Origin: Chrysophaeum taylorii
Taxonomy: Eukaryota > Sar > Pelagophyceae > Pelagomonadales > Pelagomonadaceae
Direction of reading: 5' to 3'
DNA length: 64,000 nucleotides
Assembly: GCA_029834535.1 (NCBI GenBank)
Contig: JAQMWT010000339.1
Span: 36,693 to 100,692 of the forward strand
Below are positions 51,841 through 63,068 of this stretch, piece by piece. Each line of letters begins with the position of its first letter. Position 1 is the stretch's first letter. Under the pieces are notes generated by a model, which saw only the letters and a program-made list of their open reading frames with translations, had not been told where the DNA came from and did no database searches. Both the position numbers and the translations under genes were made by a program.

Positions 51841-53134
51841 TTATGCCGTGCGGTGGCCTGCTCTGCGCCGATCGCAGCAGCGCGGACACTTCTTCGACGT
51901 GCGGACTTCTTCCCTGAACTCGATACCGCCGCCAGCAACGAGGAGATGATCGTAAAATAAGCGAATTGTGGTGAGCGCCCGGACGACCGCGTCGTGGCCG
52001 CACAAGCGCGCCATGTCGAGAGCCGTTCCGCCGTCGAAGACAAGACGATTGCCGTCGGCGCCGAACCCAATCAACAACTTGACTACTTCGACGTGACCGT
52101 AGAAGCACGCGGCGGCGAGCGGCGTCACGCCGTACAACCCGAGGTTCGCGGCCTGATCGACGTCGGCACCTTTCGAAAGTAGTAGTCGAGCAACGGCAAC
52201 GTGACCCTCTTGGCTGGCTACGTGAAGCGGCGACACGTTGTCGCGCGTAGCCAGGTTGACGCGAGCCGAGATTTTTAGGAGGAAATCGACGAGGTCCAAG
52301 TGACCGTGATGAGAAGCGATGCAGAGCGGCGCAAAGCCGTCGGCGTCGACCTTGTTGACATCATTTCCTCGCGAAAGCAAGAGTTGGGCCATCGCAAGAT
52401 TCCCCGTCTCGCACGCGACGTGCAGCAGAGAGTCCGAAGAAGTTAGGCTCGCGCCGTGATCGAGGAGTAATTCTACGAGGTCCAACCGACCTACCGTCGT
52501 CGCGATGCGAAGCGGCATCTCGGTTTGGTCGACATGAGCTGTTGAGAGGAGGAGACGGGCGATGGCGACATGACCTTTCCGACTCGAACCGCACAAAGCG
52601 GTCGAGCCGTCGCTCGCTTTAACGTTGACGTCGGCGCTTGTCTCGAGCAAAAGACGTACGATATCGACGTGGCCGTTGTCGCTGGCGGTGTAAAGCGCCG
52701 TCGCGCCCTCGTCCGTTCTCTGGTTCATGTCAGCGCCTCGAGACGGCAACAATTTCGCGATTGCGAGATGGCCGTGCCGGCACGATGCGAAAAGCGATGA
52801 CGCGCCGCTCGCAGTTCGTTGGTTGACCTCAGCGCCATTCTCGAGCAGCACTTTCGCTACGGAAACGTGACCTTCGTGGCTGGCAACGAAGAGCGAGGAC
52901 TCGCCCTTGATCGATACTTTGTGAACGTCGGCACCGCTCGAAATCAACAGTCTTAGGATGTCGGGGTAACCGGAACAGCATGCCGCATCGAGTGTCGGGG
53001 TAACCGGAACAGCATGCCGCATCGAGTGCCGACAGCCCGCGATCATCGACCTCGTTCACGTCATCACCGCGCGCGATTAACCGCCTCACACCATCTACGT
53101 CGCCGCTATAGCTCGCACGACCAAGGAGGCTCAT
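51841..53134 (-). pseudogene. Ankyrin-repeat protein gene broken by a 34-bp tandem duplication
   Basis: From ATG 53134 the protein starts 'MSLLGRASYSGDVDGVRRLI' and enters the first ankyrin repeat 'DRGLSALDAACCSGYPD'. There a perfect 34-bp duplication (52960-52993 and 52994-53027) shifts the frame by one. After it the other frame holds about ten clean ankyrin repeats, for example 'GESSLFVASHEGHVSVAKVL', 'GATALYTASDNGHVDIVRLL', 'NVSPLHVASQEGHVAVARLL' and 'GVTPLAAACFYGHVEVVKLL', and ends at 51841-51843 with a Cys-rich tail. Without one copy of the repeat the two frames join exactly, so the lesion is single and recent-looking. Translation from an internal ATG (53046 frame) would still give a 401-residue ankyrin protein. 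Partner unknown. Confidence 0.85.
52960..53027. repeat. Perfect 34-bp tandem duplication
   Basis: Two identical units beginning GTCGGGGTAACCGGAACAGC and ending CATCGAGT, at 52960-52993 and 52994-53027. 34 is not a multiple of three. Confidence 0.95.
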
Positions 53135-53272: not shown

Positions 53273-53605
53273 GTGGTTTTCTCAGATACCCGCCCCTCCT
53301 GGCCGGACCAGGGGCCTCAACAACCCTTTCTCCCAACCCGAACCGCGGGTGAAACCACCACACGCCCGATCTCAGCGTAATACCTCACGCCACCACGAAA
53401 TCGGACAATCAAATGAGGGTAATATCAAGAAGACAGCAAGAAAACAATACAAATGCCCGGTACATTGGGTCCAGTGGAAGCGCAGGTGAGGGTGTCAATA
53501 TGACACCCCGCCCCATAAGTGCAAGGTCAATCAATACCAGAGCAACAATCAGGGTAAGTCAGGTGGTAGGCAGGCAAGTGGGGGGAATGGGCGTTACTGC
53601 CACAG
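53273..53605 (-). repeat. 3' LTR of the gypsy element
   Basis: In element orientation it starts TGTGGCAGTAACGCCC and ends in GAAAACCAC. A purine-rich PPT-like tract (AGTAGGGGGCTCC in element orientation) lies immediately upstream, at about 53605-53617. Confidence 0.9.
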
Positions 53606-53748: not shown

Positions 53749-55689
53749 TCACCCGGGCGAAAAATCAGTCATACAGGGTTCACAGCCCTCCATGTTTGGT
53801 CGTAGGCGTGTGAAGCTACCTCCGTCAGGATCTTTGTATTCTGGTCTTAAGCGTCGCTCAGCCAGAGGCTTAGTAGGATCAAAGACGCGAGGATCATCGC
53901 GCGGACCCAAATCGGTATAGTAGTGAAGCGCAACTGTATCATTGTCGTGGTCAAATTCATCGTAGACTTCGGCAACATAGATACGCTTCTTCCACGCGTT
54001 GGATCGTCCTTTCACCCTGAAAATCACGAACTTACCATGTTTGAACCGGTCGGGGTCCGAAGGTAAATGCAGAGGGGCTGAAGAAGTGTCGATGGTTGGC
54101 ACTTTCAAAGGCACAATCTGTTGTACAGATACTACAACCGATTCAGCATCATCATCGTTGACGTCTTGAATTTCGTCAACGACGGGAGAGATATTTCTAG
54201 TAACCATGTAAGGTCCGCGCCAAATGGGCCGTAGCTTGTGGCGTGTCTTAGGCACGAAACGCAGAACATAATCACCTGGGGAAAACTGGATGTCAATTTG
54301 ATGGGCATCATAGTTGAGTTTTTGACTCTCCTGTGCTTTCTGGTGAGCTCGTGTAACGAGTCGACTATAAAATTCAATCTTGTTCTTAAAGTCCACCAAA
54401 ATCTGATGACGTGATTGCGGTAGATCACGCTGTTCACTCAAAAGATTGTAATCGGGTGGTAACAGGGGTTGCTTGCCAGTACGCATCATGAAAGGTGAAA
54501 TCTTCGTTCCCGGAATGTACATCCTATTGTACATGAATGACACATATGGGAGGAAATTCGACCAATCTGGCTGACGCTGTTCATCGATCGCAGCTCGCAA
54601 GAAGGCTTTGATGAATCGATTGACACGCTCAGTATGATTACTCTGAGGGTGATACGGAAGGGTAGTATGATAACGTACGTTGAATTGACGAACAAACGTG
54701 CGAAATAACCTGTTCGCGAACTCATTTCCATTACCCGTGACTATGCACCGTGGGAGACATCCCTCAAGTAAAATCTTGTCCACAAACGCGTTCAAAATCG
54801 AATAGTCAGGTTTTGTGTTGATCAGAGCTAATTTCAAGAAATGCGATGCTGCATCGTACATTGCGAGGATGTACGTGTACAGGTCAGCGCCTCGCAGAGG
54901 TCCAATCAAATTCATACCTAGGACATAGCAATCTCCGACGCGATTCGGTTGACAGAGCAAGCCATGACGACTAGGCATGGTGGATCGAACCTTCTGGCAA
55001 ATAATGCAGGCATTGACGAACTCATTAACTGATGATGAGACGTTTGGCCACCAATACCGTTCTAAGATTTGGTTCGCTGTGGAGTCTCGTCCTACATGGC
55101 CTCCGAACAATCCTCGGTGATGCATGGCGATCACACGCTTTTGCATAGACTGAGGGACCACAATAAGACGTTGAGAAACTGAATCGTCGACCTTATACAA
55201 CACGTTGTCATCAACCTCATATGGTACGGATGACTGCTCGTCTTGATCTTTCTGTTCAGAGTCGAGATTTCGTCTGATGCGCTTGCATATTTCATCCTCA
55301 GCTTGTTCTTTCGCTATCTCATCGAGAGTGATCTCATCCTCCGCTCGATCCGCAAAAGGGAGACGTTCGACGGAGTCAACTGGCTCAGACTCGTACGAGA
55401 ATTGAGGCGGTTGTACGTTCTGTCGCGTACTAACTGCTACCATAGCTGCGGTGGGTCCGATGTCCATCAGCATAGGCATCGTCACCGAAGAGAAGGTGAA
55501 ACAAGCTGTGTCAGGTACATCGGTGGGGATTTCTTGGAAAATCAAAAAAGCTTCATTGATCGGTTCTCCGTCTTCGTCTTTCTCGATCAATTTGTCGATA
55601 GGGCTGCGCGACAGACAATCCGGAATACGCATGCCAGGGGAGCTTCCAGGCTTGTATCCGAGCTCCCGGTCGAACGCAGCAAGCCGCAT
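53749..55689 (-). pseudogene. gypsy integrase and C-terminal domain, active site altered
   Basis: The 646-codon frame is the continuation of the RNase H frame after the TGA at 55693-55695. Zinc-binding H-H-C-C: 'HHRGLFGGHVG' and 'CIICQK'. The catalytic core shows 'MNLIGPLRGADLYTYILAM', where the first D-x-x-G-P-L Asp is Asn, and 'IVTGNGNEFANRLF', where the second Asp (usually D-N-G-x-E-F) is Gly; the Glu in 'QSNHTERVNRF' remains. Two of the three DDE acids are thus lost and the enzyme should be dead. Beyond the usual GPY-like region ('LRPIWRGPYMVTRNIS') there are about 150 further residues with 'HGKFVIFRVKGRSNAWKKR' and 'YVAEVYDEFDHDNDTVALHY', an SH3/BAH/chromo-like beta barrel that might have served targeting. 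Confidence 0.85.
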
Positions 55690-55692
55690 AGC

Positions 55693-56634
55693 TCATCGTG
55701 CTAACTGTCCAGACGTATGATTCGAATCCCGCAGAAACGTTAAATTACGATGATCCGTCTCTAACTTCGTCTGATGACCTTCGATATAAAATCGGAAATT
55801 TTCGAGAGCAGAGAGTACTGCGAGGAGTTCCAAGCGCCGAGGATCGTACTTCCTCATCGATTTAGCCACGGTTCGACTCCAGTACTCGATAACTCTCTCT
55901 TCGATTCTTTCTCTTCCATCGTCGTCAACGAATGGTACCTTTTGAAATAGGTAAGCACCCAACCCATGCGCAGAAGCATCGGTTCGAATGTAAAAAGGTA
56001 ACGAGTAATCAGGATGATAGACGCCCTTCGAAGTGACAATAGCCTCGATGATGGCATCCCAAGCTTCCTGACACTCTTTCGTCCACTTGAATTTCACGTC
56101 CGGCAAAGTCAGTTGTCTTAATGGCTCTGCAACTTTCGCAAAATTCCTTACATACCACCGGCAAAAACTCTCCATTCCAAGGAAAGATCGCACTTGCTTT
56201 TTAGGGTCAGCATCCGACAAAGTGCAAGGAATTGGCATGTGTCTGATGGCTTCTAAAGACCTTGGTGATGGAAGAAGTCCGTTCGGGGTAGATAAATGAC
56301 CCCAAAACTCAATGACTTCTTGCATAAAGTGAATCTTCTTGATCTTGGCGCTGTACCCCTTCAAGGCAAGATGGGGAATAACTTGCACAAGGCACTGCAA
56401 GTGGTTCTTTGTATCTGCGTGACCGGCGAGAATATCGTCGATATATGCCACGAGATCACGATATAGCCATGTCGACAAGTCAGTGTTCAACTGCTTGCAA
56501 AATAAACTTCCGGCTGGTTTGACTCCCAAAGGTAGACGCATGTAGCTGTACGCTCCCAGAGGGCTAGTGAAGGTGACCACATCTTGTGCATCTAGCGACA
56601 ATCGTAAATTGTGACAGCCCCAACGAATATCCAA
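55693..56634 (-). pseudogene. gypsy reverse transcriptase (part) and RNase H
   Basis: The frame picks up the RT after a one-base shift at about 56630 and reads 'SLDIRWGCHNLRLSLDAQD', 'LGAYSYMRLPLGVKPAGSLF', and the catalytic 'LVAYIDDILAGHADTKNH'. Connection and RNase H follow: 'VRSFLGMESFCRWYVRNFA', 'FYIRTDASAHGLGAYLF' and 'YDPRRLELLAVLSALENFR' with 'YIEGHQTKLETDHRNLTFL'. It ends 'SNHTSGQLAR' at a TGA (55693-55695) where the family has a Trp (TGG to TGA). The frame goes on without interruption into the integrase. Confidence 0.9.
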
Positions 56635-59600
56635 ACTTTGAACGACAAAACTTGTCGATGAGAAACATCAATGCGTCAGCCATGCTCACAATCGGCCAGC
56701 TATCATCCTTGAGCAATGCATTGAGGCGCCGTAGGTCGACAGCTGCTCTGCAAGCATTGGAAGTGCCAGGCTCAGCACCTTTCTTAGGCAACATCAAAAT
56801 AGGGAAGCCCCGCGGAGAATTCGCGGGACGAATAACTCCGTCTCGGGTCCACGCTTCAATCTGCATCCGCAAACATTCAATCCTTTCTTTCGACAACCGA
56901 TATGGCGAGAGTTTGACGGGAGTCGGGTTCTCTTCTTTGAACCGGAGCGTCACTTCAGGTGAATCCACAGGTCTCATCACATCATCGAAAAATGCCCACG
57001 AATACGAGACTAAATGCTTCATCATCAGCTTCTCGTCATCATCTAAAGCAGGATGCTCTGTGATACCCAATTCAGTCATCACCTCTTCGACCTGCGCGAC
57101 GGTCGGAGGGATGACCTGCATGCTCTCCTGACCCGCTAAATGAGGAGGCATCACCGGTAAAGGTTGACCATGTTCGTCGTGAGGCGCGTCCGCCCACGGA
57201 ACGTCGTACTTATTGAAATACGCTGGTCGCTCTTTCGCGGTGCCTTCTTCTTCAGCAGTTGCGGAGGGCTGGTTGTCGACTTGGTTGCTCTGCGTAACAG
57301 CAGTGGCGACGGTGCTCCCTGCAAAAGATGAAGCCGTCCCAGGCGACGTAACTGAAGGTGGTGGCGGGGTGGTGGGGGCAGCAGCTGATGGTGCAGGACT
57401 CGCAAGAGAATAGAGTTCATCGGGCGCAATCCATGACACACTTCGAGTGGCAGGGTCGAGCGTTGGAATGCGCGACTCTACAGCAAAAGGTGAAAACCGT
57501 AGAATATGGTGATCATGTTGGGCTAGCTTAGTCGTCGCAATATTCCGCAATTTACCCAAATTGCGAAGTGAAGGGTCAAACGAATTGTGCACTGCCAGCG
57601 CAATCCGCGTCATAGTCGCTGGTGGCACCATACTGCCAAGCATCTTCATAGCTGCTGTCTCTGAAACTGCCTCACCCCATTGCCACGTAGCAGGAACGGT
57701 CATAATGTCCTGGTGCATCTGCAACGTGAGTGGACGGGTGTTCGAGAAATGATGTTCTAGGTGGAGCTTATTGCGCGTCACTGTGAAGGCAGGGCCGATA
57801 GCCGGGCGCGTAGATGAGAAACTCTTCACTATAATGAGCGGGTGACCACCTGTAAATCCCAACGCTGGCCCAAAACGGCCCCTTAAATTCGGTGGTACAC
57901 GCGATAATAAAGGCAGGTTCAAGCGAACATTGCACGCAAGTAGGCGTGTGCGCGAGCACAGCAACTCTAGTGTGATACTATAGAAATCGACAATACGCTG
58001 CACATAAAATTGGTGATGCACAAAAGGGATCACTGATGGTTCCTGCTCGAGCGTCCATCGTCCAATCACATAAGGTGCGTTGCGGAAATGACGCAGGACC
58101 CAAGAGGTAATAGTAGCGCCCTTGCGTGCGTCCCTGTAGTGCAAATTGGCAGTCGACCCATAGATACACGGCGGACTGGCGTGAAAATAAGAATGCTTCC
58201 AAAAATCTGAATGTGAATACGACAACACGAAGTCGTATGTACGACGATGAGATGTCCCCAGCTCATGCAAAACATAGGGAATCTTCGGAAAATTGAGCTC
58301 AAAGGTGGCTCGGGCTTGAGGACAAGCATCCAAAGCCAGGACAATGCGAAATGAACTGCCAGAAAACTCATTGCATCGTCGGATACCCAACGTTGATCCT
58401 AAAGCGCCAGCAAAGTAGACGACGACAAAGGTGTAGGTGATGGGTATCCAAACCAAGGAGGCGGGCTTAGATAGCAGCTCCTTAGCGGTCGCCTCCATCT
58501 CAATTTCTGGTGTTTTTTTCACTTCTTCATCTGGAGGTGGCTGAGGAGGAGGTCTGTCACTGAAGACATCCTCCTCGACTTCATCGTCGTCAACAGCAGC
58601 CGTAAGAGTTGCACGACACACGTCAGCAGTGGCTTCTAGCTGCATGTTGACACATCCTTCATGCGGCATGATCTCGCCTTCGACCACCGGGACTTCGGGG
58701 TCGATACCAATGGGTTCGTCACCAATGTACTCTACAGCCACATGAACTTCGTTGGGCTCGTCAGCGCAATACGATGAATAGGAATCAGGTACAAGGCGGA
58801 GATCTGGGAGGAGTAACCGACGAGGTCGGAATACGTGACCCTTCTCCAGCGGCACATCGCACTCCATCTCCAAGAAGTACGGTTGGCTTGGAAGAAGAAA
58901 TCGAGTACTCGTCACGTACGCGAAATGAGGGATGATATCTTCCTCGTCTGCAGGGCATTTAAGTTGGTCTTCCGCTTTTTCAGCAGTCTGATCACCGGGA
59001 AGAACGTGATGGTGACTCGCTCTGATACGAATAGAGCGCAGTAGACTGTCATAACTCCACGGTTTACCAACTGGCGTCCAAGTTTGGATATTTCCGTATT
59101 GCACAGCAAGCTTAGCTGTCGGGAACATCTGCACTACCTGCGGAGTCGCATTGAATGCATCATTGTAAAGGACAATTCCATGCTGGTCTTGTAGCGAGGC
59201 GGAAGTCCGATTCTTGAGAACTCCAATGGTCACTTCAGAACGCCGAAAAATAGCTCTCTCTGTCGCATAATCCAAAATCGTACCCAAAAGTCGCAATTCT
59301 CGTGCTCCTAATAGTAACTGTCCATTCGTTTGACCAACGAAGAACACGAGCAGCAGGGATGTCGTTGGCACCAAGGAGATCCGGAGAATGACCCATTCTC
59401 GAATAGCAGCTCCCGAACCTCCTGGCCCATTTTGAGTACGAATCGTAGGGAGTGGCTGACGATGGATGATTTTGCCATCACGATCAAGTTTGCGATACAA
59501 GCGGTGATCGATGTAGGGGGAATCAGCCATGCCATCCAAACCGGCAGCGATGATGGAATATTTCGAACCATCTAGCGAAGAGATAGCCACAAGCACATAC

Positions 59601-59737
59601 GTCAAAGAGGCGGATCTCGTACCATCGTACCTTACGGCTTTATTTTCACGATGGTCGGGATCCTGAGTGGTGTTCAACGCAGTCTGAGGGCAGAAACTCT
59701 CTCTCGAAATCCGAAGAAATGGAAGGGTGAGCGGCAT
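56564..59737 (-). pseudogene. gypsy pol N-terminal part: protease, methyltransferase-like domain, start of RT
   Basis: 1057 codons from ATG 59737, overlapping the gag end by 92 nt in the +1 frame. Residues about 50-165 are the retropepsin-like protease: 'AAGLDGMADSPYIDHRLYRK' in place of the usual L-D-T-G-A-D-S-x-Y-I, and 'QLLLGARELRLLGTILDYAT'. The D-T-G triad is thus D-G-M and activity is doubtful. Residues about 200-420 form an acidic linker region. Residues about 430-716 read as a C5-cytosine methyltransferase (separate entry). A Pro/Thr/Ser-rich spacer (about 775-835) precedes the RT N terminus at about 925 ('VTLRFKEENPTPVKLSPYRL', 'WTRDGVIRPANSPRGFPIL', 'CRAAVDLRRLNALL'). The RT frame breaks at about 56630. 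Confidence 0.85.
57590..58450 (-). other. C5-cytosine DNA methyltransferase-like domain inside pol
   Basis: Residues about 430-716 of the pol frame. Motif I: 'VVVYFAGALGSTLGI' (F-A-G, the AdoMet loop). Motif II/III: 'IVLALDACPQARATFELNFP' with the acidic ribose ligand D470. Motif IV: 'FHASPPCIYGSTANLHYRDA', P-P-C with the catalytic Cys 524. Motif VI: 'WTLEQEPSVIPF', in which E564 stands where E-N-V is expected. Motif VIII: a poorly conserved 'ACNVRLNLPLLSRVPP'. Motif X: 'AAMKMLGSMVPPATMTRIA', matching G-N-x-V-P-P. Order and spacing fit a compact phage-type Dcm/DNMT fold; the target-recognition part is short. The domain is uninterrupted by stops or frameshifts, unlike the RT further on. Motif VI and VIII deviations leave activity open. 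Confidence 0.75.
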
Positions 59738-62207
59738 AACGCTCGGCGCTGTCGTCCCTCGGTGGCACTATATCCATAGCAACCAAGGTATCTTGTCCCA
59801 TACGAACAATCGTATACCCCAATTCGTCACGATTATCTTCGTCTTCCGAGAGAACTCTAGATGCAACTCCAGTCACTTCGGTACTTTGCTCCTGCTCCTC
59901 CACCCATGCATCTTCAGTGATGACCAAAAAGGAAGGAGGTTCCATGGGGCCACCAGGGGAATAGCCTTCTGCAGAGAAGCTATCATCATCGCCCCCAACA
60001 TCGTCATCGTCATACACGCTGCCCTCCATGAGCTCAGAATACTGCACAGTGCAGTAGTCCGCTCGCTTAGTGTCATCCTGATCTTCGCCAAGCACTTCAA
60101 GCCACTGAGCAGCGACACCATCATTGCGCCGGCTAGGGTTCGCTCTCCGAGACTGTTGCCCTCTACCCGGTGGAGCCGTCTGCTGTGCCTGACGAATCAA
60201 GTTCATCGTGTTGAGAGCCGTAGTCAGATCCTCCAGGCGCACCGAGGTCTGAGCGGTCCGCTGCACTGCGGGCTGCCTTCGGACCACCTGTTGTTGAGAG
60301 CCTGCAACCAAACGGTGTTGAGTGCCTGCAACCAGCTGCTGTTGACCTGCACCCGGCACCTGTGCTGCTGTGTAGACCACCTGCGGCTGTTGCACAACGC
60401 GCGGCGCTAGCTGAGTCACTGAAGCCTGTCCTGCAGCAGCTAAAAGCGTCCGTCGGTATTGCTCCTGTCCCTCTGGCGTTGCTGGAAAACCCGCGTTCGT
60501 CAACGTCTGAGCAGCACGCCTCTTCCTCGAGGGATTGTCCGGCACAGGACACACACCATTGTCGTGGTTAAAACTACCATGCCGGCCGCAACTGAGGCAC
60601 GTCGTAATTGCTTGACGCGTGTGGTTATCTATCCCTTGTGGTAGCCAAGTTCCAAATCCCGAGTCAGTAACATAACCAACCCGCTGGACTGGCTGCAACT
60701 GCTGCCTCTGCTGCTGTTGCTCTCTCCTCATCCGTGGTGCGCGCTCCTTTCCCTTCTCCTTCTTAATCGCCTCTTCGATGTTGGCAGTAGGGTTGGCTTC
60801 CAGAATCTTGGAAATCTGGATGGTCAATTGAATGACATCGTTGAGGGTGAGAGTAGATGCTTTCATATGCGGTGAGGCCTGAGCAAGTTCGACGCTCGTC
60901 CGCAAGCGCTCAGAATTGTGTCCAGCAATGAAGTGCGAACGGAACGCAGCAGGATCAGTATCACGACCTGACATTGCTCGCCACTGGCCGAATTTCTGCA
61001 CCCATCGCGCAATATACTTATTCAATGACAAATTCCCATGCCGTAAATTGAGCCATTCACGTTCAAGCTCATCAACCGTAGCCCGAGGTGGACAAGGAAG
61101 CTTCGTCGCCTCTTGCATAGCATCCAGACAGTCCTCATCATGCTGGCGCAACTCTTTCAGTGTGATGGTCCCATCCTTGTATTGTTTCCACATCTGCGGC
61201 CGTTCAGCTTCCCATTTGCGATAAGCTTCCATAGGGGCGAGTTGATACTCGCCTCCAATCACGTCCATCGCTATTGAAGGCTTACCAATCTTGCCTTCCA
61301 TCATACGCCGCAATTGCATCCACCACGCTTCCACCTCATCACGGTCCTTAGTAATTTGCCCAGTGAGATTCGAAAACGTGATACGTGTCATACCAGCAGC
61401 TCCCTTCTTGACATGAAGTATCTCTTCTTCGTCACGAGGACGCGCCGAACCGGGGTCAGTATGATGGTGCGGGGTAGGCTCCGGTCGACTTCGCGGTGGC
61501 TGATCATCGGTCAGTGCCTATACAGCGACATCATTGTCGGGCGTAACACGAGTAGCATCCGGAGAGGTTGGCCGTGCCTCTCGAGCATGCGCCCGCATGG
61601 ATTCCTCCACCATTCGTCGAAGTCGATCGTTGTCGGTCCGCTGCCGCTCTACTTCTGAGCGTTGTTGTTGAGCGTCGCGGCGGGTGCTCTCAAGTTCACG
61701 TATGACTTGCTCGATCTGCGACTGGTACATCTCGAATCGTTCGGCTATGGTCTGCAGAACCTCGGGGTCGACACCCACGCGAAAATCTGTCGCTCTCGTA
61801 TTCGCAGATGGTGGCCTAGGAGGTGCACTCTCCTCTGGTCCACGCATCGCCGTAAACGGTCCGGGTTCCGCTCGAGATGACTCCGTAGCATTCATCGCAC
61901 GTTCGTAGGGTCGTGCGTACGGGAACGTCGGCTCACCCGGTTTTGAAGTTGCGTCTGCCGCAACCGTAGCCCCCCCTTCGCCGGCGCGTGGATCCGGAAG
62001 GATGACCACGCTTGGGGGGCTGTTGAGGCTATCAGATGATCTTGCTTCTCTTCCGATGCCACTTTCCTCGGCTTCCGGCCGTTGAAAGGGCGTACTGAAT
62101 GGTGTTCTCCCAATAGACGCAAATGGAGTCCCTGCACTGATTCGTTGCAGACGCTCCTGTGCGTACCGAAACCACTGCGGTCGTTCTGTCATTGGCCTCT
62201 CTGCCAT
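59646..62207 (-). pseudogene. gypsy gag with one in-frame TAG
   Basis: From ATG 62207 the first 229 codons (Pro/Arg-rich, then a coiled coil 'ERFEMYQSQIEQVIRELES') end at TAG 61518-61520. The same frame continues 'ALTDDQPPRSRPEPT' through an ATG at 61391 to 59646. The main part is a Retrotrans_gag-like helical capsid ('VEAWWMQLRRMMEGKIG', 'LEREWLNLRHGNLSLNKYIA', 'RWVQKFGQWRAMSGRDTDPA', 'FRSHFIAGHNSERLRTSVEL'), followed by a Q-rich basic stretch and a zinc-knuckle-like 'CLSCGRHGSFNHDNGVC' (C-x2-C-x5-H...C spacing is irregular). The C-terminal part is acidic. The TAG could be a nonsense mutation or, less likely, a readthrough site. Confidence 0.85.
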
Positions 62208-62664
62208 GACCGCGATTTGCCCGGATAATAGGCTTAATTCGAACGCTCACAACTCGTTTGTTGCACTCTTTTTCCGTCAGACGACAATTGCCGGCAGCCG
62301 TCTGACTGCGCGCTGTACCGGTGCGCTGGACTTACGGAAGTATTTGCCTTGCGCGTGAAGACTATGGACGGCCTTCCCGGTGCTGTCGCTCGCCGTCAGG
62401 GAGGTGGTCTGCCTCGCGCGAGCTAAGTTAGGTCTTACTCTGTCTTTGCCTGGTTAGGTCTTACGATGCTTTGCCTGAGTCGTAGTGACTCCGCTCCCGG
62501 TTCGATCCGAATCACGCAAAATGAACCCTGCAGTAGTACCCGTGATTCCCTGGATCTTCACCCACAAATGCGTTGGCTTCGCACTCACTCGACCGTTACG
62601 AACCGACTCGCCGCCGAAAAACAGGAGATCGATAGTCCGGGAGTTGGACTATCGATTCCCGTTT

Positions 62665-62673
62665 CTGAGACCA
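62665..62673 (-). promoter_or_regulatory. Candidate primer-binding site
   Basis: In element orientation TGGTCTCAG directly after the 5' LTR, followed by AAACGGGA. It resembles the TGGTATCAGAG primer site for initiator-Met tRNA at the first ten bases with one mismatch. Not certain. Confidence 0.4.
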
Positions 62674-62678
62674 CTGTA

Positions 62679-63068
62679 GTGGTTTTCTCAGACACCCGCC
62701 CCTCCTGGCCGGGCCAGGGGCCTCAACAACCCTTTCTCCCAACCCGAACCGCTTGTGAAACCACCACACGCCCGATCTCAGCGTAATACCTCACACCATC
62801 ACGAAATCGGACAATTAAATGAGGGCAATATCAAGAAGACAACAAGAAAACAATACAAATGCCCGGTACATTGGGTCCAGCGGAAGCGCAGCTGAGGGTG
62901 TCAAGATGACACCCCCCCCTCCATAAGTTCAAGGTCAATACCAGAGCTACAATCAGGGTAACCCACCCACATCCTTCATGCTCCCCACACACACCGCCCT
63001 CTTAGCAGTCGACATTTAAAGTCAGGTGGCAGGCAGGCAAGTGGGGGGAATGGGCGTTACTGCCACAG
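62679..63068 (-). repeat. 5' LTR of the gypsy element, with a 59-bp insertion
   Basis: Aligns over its full length with 53273-53605 except for a 59-bp extra block at 62962-63020. Confidence 0.9.
62962..63020 (-). repeat. Dispersed repeat R1 inserted into the 5' LTR
   Basis: A 59-bp block absent from the sister LTR: the 3' LTR reads GGGTAAGTCAGG without interruption at the same site. The block holds the R1 core (AGCAGTCGAC at 63004-63013) and the C-rich 'CATCCTTCATG' found in other copies. The sister LTR gives the empty site, so R1 behaves as an insertion unit. Confidence 0.85.

Follow-up and report, generated by a model that had tools for sequence, protein, structure and literature searches.

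What does a domain resembling a C5-cytosine methyltransferase (MTase) do inside the polyprotein of a retrotransposon, and is it kept there by selection? The question is raised by one locus in the window, i.e. the whole stretch of 64,000 nucleotides that was analysed, for which a sequence-only reading had proposed that the pol frame of a Ty3/gypsy element, in a stramenopile-type host, contains such a domain. Element, domain and host are as proposed. Beyond the single copy first noted, the larger finding is a family of such elements, together with a second MTase in Ty1/copia elements of the same genome.

The element lies on the reverse strand (-), to which all its coordinates refer, between a 5' LTR (62679..63068) and a 3' LTR (53273..53605). 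BLAST paired the two LTRs with 266/287 identities plus a second piece of 49/50, a divergence of about 5%, with 57 nt extra in the 5' LTR between the matched pieces; on the element strand both start with TGTGGCAG, and no target-site duplication was seen at the LTRs. A 501-nt query covering most of the 3' LTR and adjoining inner sequence matched at least 42 places in the genome (70.8 Mb in 697 contigs for all own-genome searches), 40 of them at 93-100% over the whole query. Just inside the 5' LTR, a 21-nt primer-binding site (62653..62673) is the complement of the tRNA-Gly(GCC) 3' terminus and its CCA. Its 18-nt core occurs at 104 genome places. Five of these places were retrieved with their surroundings: in L070, two tRNA-Gly(gcc) genes end in the core, and in the four others (L071-L074) ARAGORN found no tRNA. 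The list of open reading frames then gives the upstream part of a gag-like region (61518..62246), which is interrupted here and whose counterpart in L042 shares a frame with the MTase, and the gag-like region itself (59646..61517), which is named by position, has no meaningful Pfam match and, in L042 and L039, shares its frame with the MTase. The C-terminal part of the reverse transcriptase (RT) with RNase H (55693..56667; Pfam RVT_1 3e-9 over profile positions 70-203, RT_RNaseH_2 4.2e-24, RT_RNaseH 1e-22) differs in frame from the MTase in the window copy, and is followed by an integrase region (53749..55692; Integrase_H2C2 6e-18, and rve 3.3e-5, under its curated cut-off). With the domain order MTase-RT-RNase H-integrase, direct LTRs and a tRNA primer site, the element is a Ty3/gypsy LTR retrotransposon. 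An ankyrin-repeat ORF (51844-53055) adjoins the 3' LTR at 53273.

The domain had been placed between protease and RT. Its position upstream of the RT stood, whereas the protease is a call by reading, with no Pfam protease match: a protease-like segment with approximate limits 59240..59605, in which ...LLLGARELRLLGTILDY resembles a retropepsin C terminus, and whose active site reads D-G-M where D-S/T-G is expected. By reading of the window copy and L045, D-G-M-A in place of the retropepsin D-S/T-G-A is common to both gypsy families described below. The window copy is old, broken and a member of a large family, with gag, pol and integrase in different, interrupted frames; the pol frame nevertheless is open, as had been claimed for the domain within a broken element.

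This pol frame (56564-59767, open in the ORF list) has PF00145 as its sole Pfam match at E<=1 (2.4e-6, 27.7 bits against a cut-off of 22), and the domain query by itself (57458-58450) raises the match to 32.4 bits (8.6e-8), in agreement with the family assignment first made by eye. The C5-cytosine methyltransferase-like domain extends over 57581..58450, based on PF00145, on residues invariant in alignment A3 and on profile-profile comparison. Its motifs are, in order, I (FAGALG), II (LALDAC), IV (SPPC), VI (LEQEP), VIII (RTR), IX-like (RPLTLQMHQDIMTVPATW) and X (GSMVPP); motifs I, II, IV, VI and X are thus present in the order initially described, with VIII and the IX-like motif in addition. 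The catalytic PPC of motif IV is located at 58166..58174 (domain residues 93-95) and motif VI, with E-Q-E replacing the usual E-N-V, at 58040..58048 (domain residues 135-137), both invariant in 6/6 A3 rows.

Searching the genome for other copies, as had been suggested, revealed a large family and a sister family. The window MTase family, here called gypsy I, has at least 131 places at 60-100% identity, the window copy included (121 of 888 candidates scored). Thirty loci (L009-L038) were fetched, the window copy being one of them; the matched domain is free of stops in 22. In a further locus, L039, the gag-like part, the MTase and the RT share a single frame of 2,070 aa. Over 3,990 sites, the two most similar of the 30 loci agree at 99.4%, which suggests recent gypsy I movement, with the caveat that the pair may be separate insertions or duplicated contigs. 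The RT as query led to sister elements (gypsy II), with an RT identity of 62-64%, that were absent from the MTase matches; 9/10 loci sampled, some only partly covered, have an MTase in the same place before the RT, 34-37% identical to that of the window copy. The domain of L045, a gypsy II element, has at least 119 places at 78-100% identity (119 of 1,057 candidates scored), and by hand count 95 of the 119 listed are without stop. As single domains, L044 (23.4 bits) and L045 (25.3 bits) are above the PF00145 cut-off of 22, the whole L045 frame falls just short of it (21.0 bits), and the domain of L043 is without any Pfam match. L046 (gypsy II, G000:C105:118001-120600) is without the protease-like and MTase parts and has an RT match without stop; its gag-like frame runs directly into the MTase-RT linker, and it is possibly a non-autonomous derivative. 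All these match counts include fragments and differ from copy numbers, and they are inflated by contig pairs with the same matches at near-identical positions (G000:C6/C268 and C10/C297), which are probably haplotigs or assembly duplicates.

For conservation within gypsy I we used alignment A1, whose rows are the window copy, L039 and 20 further loci of the 30 fetched that are free of stops; the one remaining stop-free locus (L037) and the 8 with stops were left out. All 22 rows match PF00145 (E<=1; best 1.7e-10). The catalytic Cys, the motif VI Glu and both Arg of R-x-R are invariant in A1, with deviations nearby in L038 (PSC), L032 (EHE) and L028 (EEE). A3, whose 6 rows include some that are no more than 34-37% identical to the window copy, retains the invariant core F.G..G...G, D, PPC, EQE, R.R, a P and a W in the IX-like motif, and PP; the window copy is without one Gly in motif I, with a Leu at a site where 21/21 other A1 rows have Gly. 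The Asn-Val that follows Glu in motif VI is replaced by Gln-Glu in the gypsy domain, whereas E-N-V is invariant in 11 aligned C5-MTases (Dcm, eight phage enzymes, and the host genes L001 and L040).

Selection was estimated from pairs of copies. Between L039 and L042 (gypsy I, one pair) the MTase has a dN of 0.095, a dS of 1.62 and a dN/dS of 0.059, while the ratio is 0.086 in the protease-like segment, 0.22 and 0.30 in the linkers, and gag has a dN of 0.475 with saturated dS; the MTase ratio is thus below that of its flanking linkers and its dN far under that of gag. For gypsy II the MTase dN/dS is 0.065-0.067 in diverged copies (dS ~1.7) and 0.23-0.34 in near-identical ones, and for the copia MTase introduced below it is 0.09-0.16 and 0.27-0.33, respectively, the higher ratios in near-identical copies being as expected from drift after insertion. 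All three MTase sets are under purifying selection, with ratios that are rough since synonymous sites of the diverged pairs are near saturation. Selection appears to have retained the gypsy MTase from before gypsy I and gypsy II split.

A profile search of the genome with PF00145 gave at least 57 places (123 of 474 candidates scored): one DNMT2-like (L001), one DNMT5-like (L040) and 55 others. The 53 gypsy I places compared show no overlap with any of these 57, which indicates how highly divergent the gypsy domain is. The 55 others lead to a different element. The locus L041 (G000:C314:150501-158500) is a copia element with PF00145 at residues 355-492 (5e-7) and RVT_2 at residues 1686-1848 (9.5e-28), and an integrase placed between them by reading, with no Pfam call. 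Its MTase has at least 112 places at 56-100% identity (108 of 589 candidates scored). Of the 55, 42 coincide with copia-MTase matches or are no more than 900 nt away from one, L003 is copia by reading, and each of the other 12 matches the copia MTase with 69-93% identity. In seven aligned copies of this family (loci L041, L003-L008 and L075-L086) the motifs read GGLHQEG, LPCQHLS, ENV (ENA in one) and R-Y-L-A-V, and the profile-profile comparison with the 11 C5-MTases gives 96.6 (E 5e-10). The gypsy and copia profiles, both shallow, do not match each other (0.2), and as each matches known C5-MTases, it is suggestive of the two MTases having no common origin.

Which methylation machinery does the host itself have? 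L040 is DNMT5-like, with PF00145 and SNF2 called by Pfam and a cysteine-rich, RING-like segment by reading; its long open frame (L040:2967-7499) has acidic low-complexity runs and, by reading, stands beside a MORN-repeat-like ORF. L001 is DNMT2-like by reading. Both are cellular genes of the same Pfam family as the element domain, each found once in the genome, and differ from the gypsy domain in having ENV rather than EQE at motif VI. No DNMT1 or DNMT3 was seen among the matches listed from the six-frame genome search, an absence that is provisional since intron-split genes can escape such a search. The host toolkit looks small, the DNMT5-like and DNMT2-like genes being the only other PF00145 genes found. 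As regards the host, L063 and L065, two tested of 8 LOV loci, encode proteins with bZIP and PAS/LOV domains by Pfam. These products are aureochrome-like, and with aureochromes being known from photosynthetic stramenopiles, the host is one of these; it is consistent with a non-diatom ochrophyte. The L001 stretch also holds a light-harvesting protein with best PDB matches to VCP/PCP/FCP-type antenna proteins. We also observed an apparent cluster of large LOV proteins, with four LOV-motif matches within 7 kb (L069 and G000:C524:548233-555152), and more large LOV proteins at L067 and L068.

The sequence signs of CG methylation at the elements appear mixed. CpG at codon boundaries is 0.88-1.17 in five element ORFs against 1.23-1.42 in six host ORFs, and TpG/CpA is higher in most of the five element ORFs than in host ORFs; element age, codon bias or host DNMT5 could each suffice to explain the lower element value. 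Among private changes, C-to-T is hardly more frequent at CG (82/12,899, 0.0064) than elsewhere (214/36,595, 0.0058), and T-to-C and C-to-T occur about equally often (159 and 149). At 1.03, the CpG observed/expected ratio of the 30 element loci is low only by comparison with the CpG-rich host.

Against this background several readings of the domain have to be weighed. That the resemblance is due to chance, or that another class I methyltransferase was mistaken for a C5-MTase, we hold to be extremely unlikely. It could draw on the PDB, where a search by sequence gave no hit for the window domain or A1 and the profile hits for A3 were weak (E 0.17 and 0.61), on a mean pLDDT of 31.5 for AlphaFold2 with the window domain as single sequence, and on the dcm model TIGR00675, which matches the gypsy domain under its cut-off. 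It is opposed by the PF00145 match of every aligned copy, by PHROG methyltransferase profiles that agree with the C5-MTase-like call, and by a profile-profile match of the gypsy MTases to the 11 C5-MTases (probability 94.1, E 1.2e-7, 82 columns from motif I to IV) where an RT control of two sequences stayed unmatched (0.2); moreover, the invariance of core residues in A3 despite 34-37% identity makes chance unlikely. A domain that has lost catalysis and serves Pol as a DNA-binding or structural spacer would be compatible with E-Q-E instead of E-N-V, with an L043 domain that Pfam does not recognise, and with L046, in which the protease-like and MTase parts were lost and the RT match is nonetheless stop-free. 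We regard it as distinctly improbable, given that PPC, Glu and R-x-R are invariant in A3 and that the domain evolves at a lower dN/dS than both its linkers and at a dN far below that of gag.

The domain might also be an active C5-MTase with RNA as its substrate, either the genomic RNA of the element or its tRNA primer. The stretch CFT..Y..Y..GTGS of L001, a DNMT2 signature, is not seen in the element domain, in which a target-recognition region and motif IX are present by reading. In favour of RNA, DNMT2 methylates tRNA (PMC9998398, in excerpt), a tRNA-Gly primer site is part of the element, and there is little sign of CG methylation in the private changes; on the other hand, other retrotransposon DNMTs methylate DNA (PMC5890265, in excerpt), and in sum an RNA substrate seems quite unlikely. 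We consider it improbable, too, that the domain manipulates the host by competing with its DNMT5 system or misdirecting it, which would let the element evade silencing without marking itself. The presence of an MTase in two unrelated LTR superfamilies of one genome hints at host pressure, and in a diatom that has lost DNMT5a, methylation is lost as well and young TEs are overexpressed (PMC9998398, in excerpt); yet the catalytic residues are kept, and a decoy would not need them.

The best-supported reading is that the gypsy domain would be a catalytically competent C5-MTase methylating the element's own DNA. What we observe is a family match, conserved catalytic residues, purifying selection and many copies, some near-identical. 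As a whole, it is reasonably probable that a captured C5-MTase was kept by selection in a Ty3/gypsy Pol, that a second, unrelated-looking one resides in Ty1/copia, and that element DNA is methylated by the captured domain. The argument builds on the PF00145 score above cut-off, the single frame of L039, the invariant Cys, Glu and R-x-R, the low dN/dS and the many matches, as well as on the DNMT5-like host gene, the lower element CpG and the CG activity of retrotransposon DNMTs, which can methylate CGs de novo (PMC5890265, in excerpt). Counted against it were the hardly raised C-to-T changes at CG, the CpG ratio near one, a motif VI without Asn, the L043 domain without Pfam match, the whole L045 frame just short of the cut-off, TIGR00675 under its cut-off, the higher dN/dS of near-identical copies, the low pLDDT of the single-sequence model, the weak PDB hits and L046 without the domain. 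In mechanistic terms, the MTase domain would be made as part of Gag-Pol and would methylate cytosines, most likely CG, in the new cDNA or the integrated copy of the element. The host DNMT5-like enzyme could then maintain the mark, and the marked element may be quiet enough to be tolerated, or may be protected in transit.

A wider role, unlikely in our estimation, is that the retrotransposons supply the genome with its de novo cytosine methylation, placing marks on new copies and neighbouring DNA that DNMT5 would propagate. It is prompted by a host that seems to keep only DNMT5 and DNMT2 and by two LTR superfamilies that supply many C5-MTases; in Cryptococcus, DNMT5 is involved in maintenance (PMC9998398, in excerpt). 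A host with an apparent repertoire of DNMT5 and DNMT2 lends itself well to testing, and if this repertoire holds, the idea that mobile elements provide the de novo side of a DNMT5 methylome becomes directly testable. A third lineage of capture, involving two LTR superfamilies and MTases to which the searched collections offered no relative, would mean a recurrent strategy rather than an oddity.

Outside this genome we searched collections that include few or no eukaryotes and may omit records of this genome or a near one. In protein databases neither the domain nor either polyprotein had a relative at E<=0.001, among 1,464, 3,827 and 8,000 word-sharing candidates, the cut-out domain query being unable to reach full-length polyproteins. 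No relative was found in viral contigs, bacterial and archaeal genome contigs or, by tblastn, phages. The initial label of a phage-type MTase was therefore dropped, no phage or viral relative having been found. We likewise abandoned a recent retrocopy of a host gene, as the copia and L045 MTases have no tblastn match to the DNMT2-like or DNMT5-like host gene at E<=0.01.

How does this compare with known systems? The excerpts of PMC5890265 describe capture of C5-MTases by retrotransposons in two lineages, dinoflagellates and Klebsormidium, so that the precedents first named, in dinoflagellates and a charophyte, proved right, the charophyte one being itself a Gypsy element. As for the claim of an unreported case, our searches of open-licence literature, which excludes most subscription papers, found no description of a C5-MTase retrotransposon in a stramenopile, and to this extent it stands; it is weakened by one sentence of a review, seen in excerpt, that lists stramenopiles among groups with DAM/DCM retrotransposons, with no element named (PMC6338049). 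Known MTase retrotransposons are written as LTR Copia and DIRS in an excerpt of PMC12344493. In Ectocarpus, gypsy elements carry accessory Tudor and NADAR domains and are likewise stramenopile gypsy elements with extra domains, and a Sola1 DNA transposon has a predicted methyltransferase of another class (N4C/N6A); the excerpts of that report (PMC12477816) describe no C5-MTase in a retrotransposon.

The closest parallel is KnitGypsy-Dnmt3 of Klebsormidium nitens, likewise a Gypsy Pol with a C5-MTase that is expanded in number and under purifying selection (Ka/Ks < 0.2); its MTase is Dnmt3-related, its repeats have a DIRS-like arrangement and its host is a charophyte (PMC5890265, in excerpt), whereas the gypsy element here has ordinary direct LTRs, EQE at motif VI and a stramenopile host. 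In Symbiodinium, SymbioLINE-Dnmt and SymbioDIRS-Dnmt3 account for hundreds of retrotransposon-borne DNMTs under purifying selection, and one class is an orphan lineage (PMC5890265, in excerpt). Several DNMT element families in one genome are common to that dinoflagellate and our host; there they are LINE and DIRS-like, here they are the LTR superfamilies Ty3/gypsy and Ty1/copia. What marks a retrotransposon-captured DNMT (de Mendoza et al. 2018) is found here as well, with an MTase in the element's own coding frame, in many copies and under purifying selection. Altogether, the kind of element is known, and what is new is the stramenopile host, the two LTR superfamilies in one genome and the EQE of motif VI.
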